From the NCBI RefSeq assembly GCF_024347615.1, contig NZ_AP025508.1:2914001-2978000 (forward strand): a stretch of DNA of 64,000 bases, written 5' to 3'. Position numbers and translations under genes: made by a program. Below, one piece after another: positions 32,666 to 37,094 of the stretch. Within the stretch, counting starts at the first letter, position 1, and every line of letters starts with the position of its first letter. This stretch comes from Vibrio splendidus (GTDB taxonomy: Bacteria > Pseudomonadota > Gammaproteobacteria > Enterobacterales > Vibrionaceae). The notes below the pieces were generated by a model, which saw only the letters and a program-made list of their open reading frames with translations, did not search any database and had not been told where the DNA came from.

Positions 32666-32986
32666 ATGAATACGGATCAACTAAATCTGACGCCAGCTAA
32701 AGAGACAGCAACAAAAGCGACAATCGCAATATACTATTGCCGTCAGTGTAATTGGATGCTTCGTTCTAGTTGGTTATGCCAAGAGCTGCTGCATACCTTT
32801 AGCGAAGAAATTGAACAAGTGAGCTTGCATCCAGACACCGGAGGCAGGTTCGAAATCTTTTGTAATGGTGTGCAGATTTGGGAAAGAAAAGCAGATGAAG
32901 GTTTTCCAGAAGCGAAAGTTCTGAAGCAAAGAGTGCGCAACATCATTGCTCCAGACAGGGACCTCGGCCACGTAGACTCAAAGTGA
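32666..32986 (+). CDS. SelT/SelW/SelH-like (Rdx) thioredoxin-fold protein
   Basis: The protein belongs to the Rdx family related to selenoprotein W, small thioredoxin-fold proteins of unknown redox role. The signature YYCRQCNWMLR near residue 24 has Cys25 and Cys28; the second position is Cys rather than selenocysteine. SLHPDTGGRFEIFCNG and IWERKADEGFPEAKVLKQRVRN complete the family pattern. At 106 residues it is standard. It is a single gene between toxS and yfcE, reading toward yfcE. Redox function is inferred from the family only. Confidence 0.88.
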   Translation: MNTDQLNLTPAKETATKATIAIYYCRQCNWMLRSSWLCQELLHTFSEEIEQVSLHPDTGGRFEIFCNGVQIWERKADEGFPEAKVLKQRVRNIIAPDRDLGHVDSK

Positions 32987-33016: not shown

Positions 33017-33562
33017 TTAAAGCTCGCCACTCACAATTACGTCACCTTCAAGGCTAATGACTTTAAAGGTATTATTTTCATAGATGCCATGGCTCGCTGC
33101 GTGACCATCTCGTGGGAATGTCACCGAACTAGGGTTAAAGATAAAGATATCATCTTGGTATTCGGCAACTGGAATATGGGTATGCCCATGGGCAATAATA
33201 TCACCCGCTTTTAGTGCTGGTCGTTTAGTGGTGTTATACAAATGACCATGGGTTAGAAAGATACGCTGACCTGATTCCAATAACACCCATGAGTAATCCA
33301 TCATCATTGGAAAAGACAACAGCATTTGATCCACTTCACTATCGCAGTTACCACGAACGGCGATGATCTCTTGAGAAAACGCATTCAACTTCTCTGCAAC
33401 CGCCGGTGGATTGTATCCTTCTGGAATCGGATTTCTTGGCCCATGATTCAGAATGTCACCCAATAGCACTAAATATTGCGCACCAGACGCTTGGTAGAGT
33501 TCTAATACCTTTTCTGTTGCTGGCAGCGAACCGTGTAGGTCTGAAGCAAAAAATAATTTCAC
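33017..33562 (-). CDS. yfcE: Phosphodiesterase YfcE (metallophosphoesterase)
   Basis: YfcE is a calcineurin-like metallophosphoesterase active on bis-p-nitrophenyl phosphate in vitro; the natural substrate is not known. The five metal-binding blocks are visible: FFASDLHGS, LLGDILNHGPR, VRGNCDSEVD, LTHGH, and AHGHTHIP. At 181 residues it matches E. coli (184). GGAG precedes the ATG. In E. coli yfcE is near yfcH; here a four-gene DUF1538/PII/CBS cassette separates the two. Confidence 0.92.
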   Translation of the reverse strand: MKLFFASDLHGSLPATEKVLELYQASGAQYLVLLGDILNHGPRNPIPEGYNPPAVAEKLNAFSQEIIAVRGNCDSEVDQMLLSFPMMMDYSWVLLESGQRIFLTHGHLYNTTKRPALKAGDIIAHGHTHIPVAEYQDDIFIFNPSSVTFPRDGHAASHGIYENNTFKVISLEGDVIVSGEL

Positions 33563-33609: not shown

Positions 33610-34017
33610 CTACACGTCATCTCTCGCCATACCGTTGATCACGATATTATTGTAACTAACCATACCGACTATCTTGTTATCACGAACTACTGGCGCGCGA
33701 CTGATACCAAAGCGTTCAAACAGGCGAGCGCAATACTTTACGTTCATCTCAGCAGACACGCTCAAGGCCGGCTTAGTCATAATTTCATAAACGTTGGTTC
33801 GCTTTGGTGAACGGTTCTTAGCCAGTACTTTTTTGGCGATGTCATTCATCAACACGATGCCGTACTCATCATCCTCATGACGTTTATCGACGATGATCGC
33901 TTTCACTTGGTGTTTTTTCGCCATCTCAATCGCTTCCAACACCGTGGTTAGCCCATCAATAATCACGTAAGTATTGGCCATTACATCGCCCACACGGATC
34001 TTTTCACTGGTACTCAT
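33610..34017 (-). CDS. CBS-domain protein of the DUF1538 cassette
   Basis: The 135-residue protein consists of two CBS motifs and little else. The first covers about residues 8-70 (VMANTYVIIDGLTTVLEAI to GIVLMNDIAKKVL) and the second about 75-133 (IMTKPALSVSAEM to GISRAPVVRDNKIVGMVSYNNI). Tandem CBS pairs typically bind adenosine nucleotides and gate transporters or enzymes. Its start overlaps the stop of the PII-like gene by 4 bases, so it is the last gene of the four-gene operon. The partner-sensing role is inference from context. Confidence 0.85.
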   Translation of the reverse strand: MSTSEKIRVGDVMANTYVIIDGLTTVLEAIEMAKKHQVKAIIVDKRHEDDEYGIVLMNDIAKKVLAKNRSPKRTNVYEIMTKPALSVSAEMNVKYCARLFERFGISRAPVVRDNKIVGMVSYNNIVINGMARDDV

Positions 34018-34364
34018 AGTTCATCCTCCACAACCTTGGTTAATGTCTCAACTTGGTGCGCAACGCCTACAGCATCTTCCACATCGATCTGGACAGCTAT
34101 TCCTTGTCCTGGCTCTTGGTCAAACTCCCCGACTTCACCAATGGTTTCTAAAATATGCCTCGCCAAATGCTCTTCAACCACAAACAGCAACACATCTTTT
34201 TGTACCTCTAACGTTAAACCAAAGAAGGTGCGCTTTTGGTTTAAGCCCTGCCCTCTGGCATTATTAATCACGGTTGCTCCGGTTGCGCCCGCATCACGCG
34301 CGGCATCGAGCACGGTATCTGTCTTACTCTCTTCTACAAACGCTAAGATAAGTTTAAAGCGCAT
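34014..34364 (-). CDS. PII-like regulatory protein of the DUF1538 cassette
   Basis: The 116-residue protein has a PII/GlnB-like ferredoxin fold: it begins [33 protein letters not shown], like PII proteins, with a GRGQG-like ARGQGLNQ loop and GKV-like later strands. The canonical uridylylated tyrosine segment of the GlnB T-loop is not seen, so it is not GlnB or GlnK. It overlaps the second DUF1538 gene by 11 bases and the CBS gene by 4, which means tight translational coupling. PII paralogues beside membrane transporters commonly gate them, as GlnK does AmtB; that role here is inferred. Confidence 0.82.
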   Translation of the reverse strand: MRFKLILAFVEESKTDTVLDAARDAGATGATVINNARGQGLNQKRTFFGLTLEVQKDVLLFVVEEHLARHILETIGEVGEFDQEPGQGIAVQIDVEDAVGVAHQVETLTKVVEDEL

Positions 34365-35148
34365 CTTTGCTCTCCTTAGAGGTGTGTAAACGGTTTAACC
34401 ATTGTGTTATTTGGGCGTAGCTCATCACTGAGATGATCGGAAACAAACTGGCAAACGCTATTAAGCCGAAACCGTCTATTACTGGGTTTCTCCCCGGTAC
34501 GGTTGAAGCAAGCCCAAGCCCAAGAGCCGTCACTAAAGGTACAGTCACGGTAGATGTCGTCACCCCGCCTGAATCGTAAGCCAATGGAATAATGAGCTTG
34601 GGGGCGTAAAAGGTTTGAATCACCACGATGACATAACCACAAATAATGTAGTAATGGATAGGATCGCCCGCAACGATACGGTAGCTGCCAAGTGAGATAC
34701 CGATGGCAACGCCTAATGCCACAGCGATTCTCAGACCATTCACGCTGATACTGCCACCAGATACTTGGTTCGCCTTAATCGCCACTGCAATCAAAGAGGG
34801 CTCGGCTATCGTGGTACTGAACCCAATACAAAACGCGAAAAGGTAAACCCAGTAATAATCAAACCAAGCCAAGGTAAGACCTGAACTGATCTTGAACTCA
34901 GTTAAAAAACTGGGCTCGGTCAATTGCATGGCCATTGTCTCCCCTAGAGGAAACAACGCGAGCTCCAACCCCATCAAAAAGAGGGACAACCCAAGAATGA
35001 CGTAAAAGAAACCTATCAGCACTTTGCCTAAGTTATTCACTGGCTTGCGCAGCACCGCTAATTGAAAACCGAAGATGATCACCGCAATCGGAATCACATC
35101 CATGACAGTGCCAAGAAAGGTGTCGATAAATTGCTGAGCACTGATCAT
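34354..35148 (-). CDS. DUF1538 membrane protein, second subunit of the pair
   Basis: The 264-residue protein is polytopic, with about seven hydrophobic segments and no signal peptide. The segment [20 protein letters not shown] followed by [20 protein letters not shown] is the DUF1538 core. [11 protein letters not shown] near the N terminus and [12 protein letters not shown] in the middle are shared with the neighbouring gene. It overlaps both neighbours (4 and 11 bases). I recall that a two-component DUF1538 pair from Halomonas (UmpAB) is a Na+(Li+,K+)/H+ antiporter, which makes a heteromeric cation antiporter the best guess here. Confidence 0.85.
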
Positions 35149-35879
35149 GTCACCACCATCCCGTAGACCATGACAAACATCATCGGCAGCAGTGAAGCAA
35201 AGGCGATCAAGCCAAAGCCATCAATCATCGGATTTCTCCCTTTAATCGCAGAGGCTAAACCCACTCCCAACGCTGTCACTAACGGAACGGTGATCGTCGA
35301 TGTTGTCACTCCGCCGGAGTCATACGCAATCCCAATGATGTTTTCAGGGGCGAAAGCAGTGAGCACCACCACTCCAATATAACCTCCGATGATCATGTAC
35401 TGGATTGGCCAACCTTTTAAGATCCGCAGCACGCCAAGTAAGATGGCGATCCCCACCGACAACGCTACCGTGAAACGCAGACCATCTGCATATTCTTCCA
35501 TTTCATCTAACGTATTGGGGATGACGCCTCCCTCGGCAGCCACTTCCGCTGCTTCAGCCGCCACCGCGGTTAACGCAGGTTCTGCAATGGTGGTGCCAAA
35601 GCCTAAACAGAAAGCGAAGGTCAATAACCAAAACACGCTCCCCTTACGAGCAAAAGCTTGAGCCATCGACTCGCCAATTGGGAACAGACCCATTTCAAGG
35701 CCAAAGATAAAAAAAGTCAGTCCAAAAACCACCAGCACTAAGCCAGTTAGAATAGACAAAAGATGAGGGAGTGGCTCTTGCAAAACAGCAAGCTGGAAGA
35801 AAGCAATCACCGCCACGATCGGCAAGAGATCCCTTAGACTACCTAACATGGCTCGAAACAAAGCAAGCACAGCCGTCAT
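35145..35879 (-). CDS. DUF1538 membrane protein, first subunit of the pair
   Basis: This is the first gene of the cassette and a paralogue of the next one. The 244-residue protein has about seven membrane segments, [15 protein letters not shown] near the N terminus, [17 protein letters not shown], and the family core [20 protein letters not shown] then [17 protein letters not shown]. Compared with its partner it carries an extra soluble stretch, [20 protein letters not shown]. It ends 4 bases into the start of the second DUF1538 gene. The pair resembles two-component antiporters such as UmpAB, from memory. No experimental role is known to me in Vibrio. Confidence 0.85.
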
Positions 35880-36179
35880 CGCAACTCCTAGTCATTGAAA
35901 TTGTGTCTGGTTATTAATTACTAATAATCATGGCAAATCCTTATCATTCCTTATGTGACAAATATTACGCAGTTGGTAACATATCCGAGTAAAGTCCATA
36001 AGTGTGATAGCGGTATACATCCTAACTTGATGAATTTAATTTCATTCTTTCGTAAATTGATACGGCGTAATTTAGGTATCACACGATTGAAACCAACTGA
36101 TCGTTATAGTGATTTTTTCGTATTGATTGGCGTTCAAAAACAAGCCATGTCTATAATTATGTTTAATAGGGAGATTGGT
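35880..36179. other. Divergent region between the DUF1538 cassette and yfcH
   Basis: About 300 bases carrying promoters for the cassette (minus) and yfcH (plus). A frame is open across it in phase with yfcH, but it has no homology and no ribosome site before 36180. An AT-rich ATTACTAATAATCATG stretch near 35920 is only a weak partial match to a Fur box and is not called. Confidence 0.5.
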
Positions 36180-37094
36180 ATGAAGATATTGTTAACGGGT
36201 GGTACGGGATTTATTGGTTCTGAATTGGTCAAAAGTTGGAATACTGACGACGTGACATTGTTGACGCGGAGCCCCGAAAAAGCGAAGCAAAACCTAAATC
36301 ATCTGAACCAGAATAACCTTCATTACATTCAATCTCTTGATGAACTCAGCGATCTCAATGACTTCGATGTAGTGGTCAATCTTGCTGGCGAACCTATCGC
36401 TGACAAGCGTTGGAGTGCGGAGCAAAAAGAGAGGATCTGTAACAGCCGTTGGCACATTACTGAAAAACTGGTCGAATTAATTCATGCCAGCAGCAACCCG
36501 CCGAAGGCTTTTATTAGCGGCTCAGCCGTGGGTTACTATGGTGATCAACAGCAACATCCGTTTGACGAATCACTACAAGTAGAAGATGAAAGCTTCCCTC
36601 ACAAAGTTTGCGCGCATTGGGAAGAGATAGCCAAGAGAGCACAATCAGAAAGCACACGCGTGATACTACTGCGAACAGGTATTGTACTTGGTGAAAATGG
36701 CGGTGCGCTCAAAAAGATGCTTATGCCGTACAAACTCGGAGTTGGTGGACCGCTAGGTTCAGGCGAGCAATATATGCCTTGGATTCACATGCTAGATATG
36801 GTGAGAGCCATCAACCACTTATTGTCGATGCCTCACGCTCAAGGGGAATTTAATATGTGTGCCCCGCACCCTGTCACCAACAAACTGTTCAGCAGCACAC
36901 TCGCCAAACAACTACGCCGACCGCATTTCTTGTTCACACCTAAATGGGCAATGTCGCTTCTGATGGGTGAATCTTCTTGTCTGCTTTTTGACAGCATTCG
37001 TTCTAAACCAAAGAAGCTCACTGAAATGGGATTTATCTTTAGTTATTCAAGAATCGAACCAGCACTAAAAAACTTGTTACAACATCAAGACTAA
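36180..37094 (+). CDS. yfcH: TIGR01777-family NAD(P)-binding epimerase-like protein YfcH
   Basis: This is an extended short-chain dehydrogenase/epimerase-like protein of the TIGR01777 (YfcH) group, whose reaction is not established. The Rossmann motif LLTGGTGFIGSELVKS is at residues 4-19, NLAGEPIADKRWS follows, and SAVGYYGD contains the YxxxK-region tyrosine. The C-terminal DUF1731-type domain starts near PHFLFTPKWAM. From the ATG at 36180, which has GGGAGA upstream, the product is 304 residues, the usual length. An in-frame upstream extension of 75 codons was rejected. Confidence 0.92.
   Translation: MKILLTGGTGFIGSELVKSWNTDDVTLLTRSPEKAKQNLNHLNQNNLHYIQSLDELSDLNDFDVVVNLAGEPIADKRWSAEQKERICNSRWHITEKLVELIHASSNPPKAFISGSAVGYYGDQQQHPFDESLQVEDESFPHKVCAHWEEIAKRAQSESTRVILLRTGIVLGENGGALKKMLMPYKLGVGGPLGSGEQYMPWIHMLDMVRAINHLLSMPHAQGEFNMCAPHPVTNKLFSSTLAKQLRRPHFLFTPKWAMSLLMGESSCLLFDSIRSKPKKLTEMGFIFSYSRIEPALKNLLQHQD

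Follow-up and report, generated by a model that had tools for sequence, protein, structure and literature searches.

The closest described relatives of the locus reported here are UmpA and UmpB of Halomonas zhaodongensis, paired proteins of the DUF1538 family that, according to the portions of the original report available to us, form a heterodimeric Na+(Li+,K+)/H+ antiporter with an activity optimum at pH 9 and a requirement for both subunits (PMC5484666). The same portions describe antiport in Escherichia coli carrying umpA and umpB alone, without a PII gene (PMC5484666), so that basal activity in that system does not depend on a PII protein, which would be at most a regulator there. The main text of that paper mentions neither PII nor CBS (zero occurrences of each). 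Elsewhere, DUF1538 appears with the Mrp, Trk and Kdp families in a list of pH-adaptation features (PMC13255231), and work on cable bacteria considers UmpAB as a means of adapting to salt (PMC12093952; PMC10030654).

Few signal carriers are as widespread as PII proteins. The available sections of a review describe direct inhibition of the transporters AmtB and SbtA by PII proteins, a mode of use that appears restricted to transporters able to be trimers, with transporter partners whose cargo is mostly nitrogen or carbon nutrients (PMC10710835). These sections also describe tandem CBS domains as nucleotide sensors of the transporters MgtE and OpuA, where they are part of the transporter itself (PMC10710835). 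Our search of the open-access literature, with subscription papers outside its reach, found no report that links DUF1538 to either PII or CBS.

The locus under study brings all three protein families together. It lies in a window, by which we mean the whole analysed stretch of 64,000 nucleotides, from a Vibrio splendidus genome of 5.88 Mb in two contigs, in which a genome search found a single DUF1538 pair. The block and its surroundings comprise the following features:

35145..35879, minus strand, UmpA-like DUF1538 membrane protein of 244 aa, encoded first in the unit (Pfam DUF1538, 236 bits)
34354..35148, minus strand, UmpB-like DUF1538 membrane protein of 264 aa (Pfam DUF1538, 230 bits), 4-base overlap with umpA
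34014..34364, minus strand, divergent PII-like protein of 116 aa (Pfam P-II, 43 bits), 11-base overlap with umpB
33610..34017, minus strand, tandem CBS protein of 135 aa, putative accessory sensor (Pfam CBS, 64 bits in two stretches), 4-base overlap with the PII gene
33017..33562, minus strand, yfcE-type phosphodiesterase, downstream flank (NCBIfam yfcE, 101 bits over cut-off)
36180..37094, plus strand, yfcH-type (TIGR01777) oxidoreductase, divergent upstream flank (NCBIfam yfcH, 339 bits over cut-off), with the start taken as 36180 and an earlier start at 35955 in the list of open reading frames
32666..32986, SelT/SelW/SelH (Rdx) family protein beside yfcE (family match)

A preliminary description of this DNA had proposed four coupled genes, a DUF1538 pair followed by a PII-like and a tandem CBS gene, and the coordinates, the overlaps of 4 to 11 bases and the Pfam families (DUF1538 twice, P-II and CBS) confirm this order of four overlapping minus-strand reading frames. 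Each of the four genes starts with ATG and is preceded by a purine-rich stretch. The yfcE gene lies on the same strand as the block and only 47 bp past the CBS stop, an arrangement that would allow read-through, and it is possibly co-transcribed with the block. Other open reading frames nearby resemble what we take to be htpG, toxR and toxS. A scan for promoters and terminators gave three promoter-like sites where shuffled sequence averaged 5.9, and seven terminator-like sites where it averaged 2.9; because all seven of the latter fall within the DUF1538 genes, we consider the scan uninformative.

Both membrane proteins belong to DUF1538 (PF07556), scoring 236 and 230 bits against a Pfam cut-off of 22.6, and they share an 11-residue core. 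Their best NCBIfam models are UmpA (382 bits) and UmpB (354 bits), in agreement with the earlier assignment of the pair to the UmpAB kind, the family of the Halomonas antiporter. These scores lie below the equivalog cut-offs of the two models (490 bits for NF041627 and 500 bits for NF041628), as do those of the other separate DUF1538 pairs that were tested. The window pair thus resembles Halomonas UmpAB in its overlapping paired genes, its family and its best NCBIfam models, but differs from it in falling under the equivalog cut-offs and in having PII and CBS genes where the Halomonas system was published as one of two genes. No significant solved sequence relative was found for the window UmpA (best E 0.7). 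By analogy with the Halomonas pair, the Vibrio pair may move the same ions.

The third protein is a member of the P-II family (PF00543; 43 bits against a Pfam cut-off of 25), and the same genome encodes two further PII proteins, both of which score better. In an alignment with these two, the block PII lacks the canonical GlnB/GlnK features (the T-loop tyrosine, the B-loop lysine and the C-loop arginines) and has a T-loop that is five columns shorter. The T-loop tyrosine is the site of uridylylation, and the B-loop lysine and C-loop arginines bind phosphate. As judged from this alignment, the block PII is a divergent member of its family without the usual modification and phosphate-binding residues. 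A sequence search against solved structures gave it no significant match (best E 0.09). A structure prediction for one of the DUF1538-DUF1538-PII fusions considered below gave a PII fold joined by a low-confidence linker; this PII domain took up both structure-match lists, with SbtB among the tied best matches to the PII part and CPII also among the structural matches.

Two known systems invite comparison, each as described in the accessible sections of the review cited above (PMC10710835). AmtB-GlnK likewise pairs a transporter gene with a linked PII gene, and its PII presumably acts on the cytoplasmic side; its transporter belongs to an unrelated family, its PII has the uridylylated T-loop tyrosine that the window protein lacks, and UmpAB is reported to be a heterodimer rather than a trimer. 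SbtA-SbtB likewise joins an ion-coupled transporter to a dedicated PII-like protein, and SbtB recurs among the structural matches of the fusion, but the transporter family is again another, there is no CBS partner, and the C-terminal redox loop of SbtB was not seen by eye in the window PII.

The fourth protein is a tandem CBS protein (PF00571; 64 bits over two stretches, against a cut-off of 24) whose closest solved sequence relative is the cyanobacterial CBS-CP12 protein (5nmu; E 2.6e-25 over residues 9-127). Unlike that protein, it has no CP12 domain, stopping at 135 residues after the CBS pair with only CBS and a sub-threshold DUF1694 returned by Pfam, and it sits in another gene setting. 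Among 96 sequences of its family, G53, P83 and G118 never vary, and conservation of R107 stands at 92%. The aspartates D59 and D124, which we presume to hold ribose, are kept only in part (38 and 65 of the 96 sequences, respectively). The c-di-AMP synthase domain PF02457, matched in 11 of 14 control genomes, was not found in the genome of the window, which makes c-di-AMP an unlikely ligand and suggests that another nucleotide would be likelier. In MgtE and OpuA the CBS pair is a domain of the transporter, whereas the block encodes it as a separate and optional protein. Three genomes of a single Vibrionaceae genus, g11 (L175, L176, L177), carry a CBS gene 69-72% identical to that of the window with no DUF1538 or PII matches, so the CBS protein may have a second role.

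The association of DUF1538 with this type of PII extends well beyond Vibrio. We sampled 299 genomes of the window's phylum, searching for DUF1538 at E 0.001 and for PII with a 13-row profile built from proteins neighbouring DUF1538 at E 1e-6, and found 116 genomes that match DUF1538, 124 that match the PII profile and 112 that match both. The PII type therefore occurs in 112 of 116 genomes with DUF1538 compared with 12 of 183 without (Fisher 2e-62, a value that ignores kinship). The four genomes with DUF1538 and no PII match are G270, G315, G332 and G340. Seven of the 12 PII-only genomes give weak matches (E 1e-7 to 1e-10; G245, G320, G325, G337, G350, G353, G379), and the matches in the other five are strong (G122, G215, G227, G243, G279). 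DUF1538 was matched in none of the 14 control genomes.

Gene order was read in 113 clusters anchored on DUF1538 pairs. These include 26 loci from the phylum sample (the best-scoring places additional to earlier loci, two of them Vibrio), 80 loci from named genome contigs (the best 80 of at least 585, picked for their similarity to a fused query, which biases them to the fused form) and seven plasmid or chromid regions (from nine records, of which the two omitted resemble ones taken). A PII-like domain lies within 700 bp downstream in 108 of the 109 clusters that have at least 450 bp of downstream sequence, the exception being L056. When at least 1200 bp is available, PII is present in 82 of 82 clusters and CBS, within 1600 bp, in 54 of 82. 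Co-occurrence, which the preliminary description had proposed to check, is thus not rare, and its unit of four genes holds for the DUF1538 pair with PII, but not for CBS, which is common without being the rule. A wider set, including regions picked partly by a PII match and excluding seven duplicates, has PII downstream of 132 of 136 pairs; the others are L056, L165, L167 and one pair of L150, where PII is upstream. With regard to the pairs lacking PII behind them (L165, L167 and L056), a PII match stands on another contig in G192 and G183.

The block arrangement is not peculiar to Vibrio and is found in other orders and phyla. Five records from Clostridia carry a fused DUF1538 pair, and the protein encoded next, about 222 residues long or longer, contains PII-like domains; by profile there are two such domains in four of the five (L139, L141, L143, L144), and Pfam reports one PII domain in each of the two proteins tested, that of L139 among them. 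Two plasmids of Alphaproteobacteria have the order DUF1538, DUF1538, PII, and CBS is beside the block in none of these seven records. Mirror distances give Pearson correlations of 0.73 for UmpA-PII (n 154), 0.86 for UmpA-CBS and 0.92 for PII-CBS (n 109), values that fit joint inheritance and that shared ancestry alone can also produce.

The genes around the block vary, which suggests that the module is the block itself. Twenty flanking proteins scanned from 15 loci have no shared function, no carbon or nitrogen gene recurs among them, and no recurring neighbour names a substrate; the proteins near PII genes without DUF1538 are varied as well. An electron-transfer-flavoprotein oxidoreductase occurs at two places, next to a block in L160 and, in L159, close to a PII that is unattached. 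One locus from an Aquisalimonas bin (L106:1835-4889) has a P-type cation ATPase and an extra PII-like gene just upstream of UmpAB-PII-CBS; the ATPase is not a regular neighbour at other loci, and an extra upstream PII-like match is also seen in L123, L128 and L129. In G236 (L150:2562-6660) there is a double module on one strand, reading fused UmpAB, PII, CBS, PII, UmpA, UmpB. The matches in a phage collection comprise six records, each either very short or an unannotated scaffold of human-faecal origin.

The linkage of DUF1538 to PII becomes covalent in some bacteria. A single reading frame, 638-692 residues from stop to stop, encodes DUF1538-DUF1538-PII at 19 of the 80 loci from named contigs, a set that, as noted, consists of the best 80 of at least 585, and Pfam confirms the fusion in the one case tested (L085; P-II 29.2 bits against a cut-off of 25). 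Eighteen of the 19 are labelled as Campylobacterota, and the remaining one, L097, is a metagenome bin assigned to Kangiella that may be mis-binned. Among 101 genomes sampled around G393, 12, all of Campylobacterota, carry the system, seven of them in one frame (five as one match, with a stop inside the matched stretch in two, and two by reading of coordinates); four of the other five have an adjacent PII gene, and G455 is without PII. A CBS gene is next door in none of the 19 fusions, compared with 54 of 63 unfused loci. Because PII is nearly always linked or fused and CBS is often missing, PII is the constant partner of the DUF1538 pair and CBS an optional accessory.

Within the Vibrionaceae, DUF1538 is matched in 70 of 101 genomes (in G074 only by a partial match of 25 bits), the PII-like protein in 69 (E 0.001) and the CBS protein in 73 (E 1e-12). 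Visual comparison of the lists indicates that every DUF1538 genome but G074 is among the 69 with PII, and that the additional CBS genomes are G024, G057 and G065, with CBS alone, and G094, with a fragment. All four genes are together in each of the 30 best-scoring loci that were read (L001 and L003-L031; UmpB is split in L027), a grouping that goes beyond chance. As an exception to the lack of CBS beside fused frames, G023 encodes UmpB and PII in a single frame, which G009 does not, and retains CBS.

The block separates yfcE from yfcH, which we take to be near neighbours in E. coli, and the preliminary description had raised the possibility that it is an insertion. We now judge a recent insertion in the lineage of the window to be very improbable, even though yfcH directly adjoins yfcE in six of the 11 block-lacking Vibrionaceae that were read (L185, L186, L188, L193, L194, L195); another four have yfcH and the SelT/W/H gene with yfcE not found, and in L187 yfcE was not found. 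The SelT/W/H gene is present at the equivalent place in several block-lacking Vibrionaceae. Transfer as such does seem to happen, since Vibrio cincinnatiensis and Vibrio injensis (L131 and L137) carry a version in which UmpAB is fused and PII and CBS follow, where the window has separate genes. Against insertion, the block is found in 9 of 13 sampled genera, and yfcH stands divergently beside umpA in 21 of the 30 loci read, the other nine all belonging to genus g11. Moreover, G094, whose yfcH is 91% identical to that of the window, retains a scar between yfcH and yfcE (L178:4028-4242) that consists of a short UmpA piece (18 bits) and a CBS tail (33 bits). This scar and the presence in 9 of 13 genera favour an ancestral block, and the Vibrionaceae distribution looks like one of repeated loss.

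We propose that the block encodes a two-subunit UmpAB-type transporter, most likely a cation/proton antiporter, that is controlled by its own PII protein with an optional CBS sensor, a reading that we hold to be probable while leaving considerable room for doubt. The UmpA-like and UmpB-like proteins would form the membrane transporter. The dedicated, divergent PII would bind its cytoplasmic face, acting by direct contact as the linkage and the fusions suggest, and would set transporter activity according to a small-molecule signal, with the tandem CBS protein as a second, optional cytoplasmic sensor. Adenine nucleotides or similar molecules are plausible ligands of both PII and CBS, and control by PII may be mainly inhibitory, by analogy with AmtB-GlnK and SbtA-SbtB. 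Given that PII is linked to the pair across very distant bacteria and is fused into the same protein in some, it is probably an on-off switch for the exchanger. Near-constant linkage across distant phyla, the fusions and the predicted PII fold argue for a PII-controlled antiporter. Weighing against it are the window pair's scores under the UmpA and UmpB cut-offs, the pairs without PII (L056, L165, L167), the five genomes with a strong PII match and no DUF1538, the low-confidence linker of the fusion model, the apparently trimeric nature of published PII targets compared with the UmpAB heterodimer (PMC10710835; PMC5484666) and the activity of Halomonas umpA and umpB alone in E. coli.

The transporter might instead be regulated by PII but have a main substrate other than Na+ or K+, such as bicarbonate, ammonium or an organic ion, with the Halomonas antiport a side activity. 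We consider this unlikely, though it deserves some weight: the PII partners named in the review transport mainly nitrogen or carbon nutrients (PMC10710835), the one DUF1538 pair for which we found an assay in print was tested in a single host (PMC5484666), and the window pair scores under the equivalog cut-offs. It has to contend with the antiport demonstrated in E. coli and its need for both subunits (PMC5484666), with the pH and salt traits associated with DUF1538 in parts of other studies (PMC13255231; PMC12093952; PMC10030654) and with the lack of recurring carbon or nitrogen genes among the 20 flanking proteins scanned. Clearly less probable is an arrangement in which PII and CBS share no more than their expression with the transporter and have their targets elsewhere, such as enzymes or regulators. 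The strong matches to the block PII type in five genomes without DUF1538 and the retention of CBS alone in three Vibrionaceae genomes speak for it; one-chain fusions of PII with the transporter and DUF1538-PII linkage across phyla speak against it.

As far as we have seen, transporters of the DUF1538 family have not been described as partners of PII, here with CBS as an optional further partner. A UmpAB heterodimer facing the usual PII trimer leads to the prediction of either a trimer of pairs or a non-trimeric PII, and the one-chain fusions found in nature offer a direct way to test the PII link. We further suggest, with a confidence that falls a little short of even, that DUF1538/UmpAB proteins are general PII-gated ion exchangers from Proteobacteria and Campylobacterota to Clostridia, with a non-canonical PII as a standing subunit (covalent in some), CBS as an optional second input, and Na+/proton homeostasis set by metabolic state. 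If the proposed control is true, many proteins that now bear no more than the name 'P-II family nitrogen regulator' would gain a role, and salt and pH homeostasis would be coupled directly to metabolic signals through a PII dedicated to a cation/proton antiporter.
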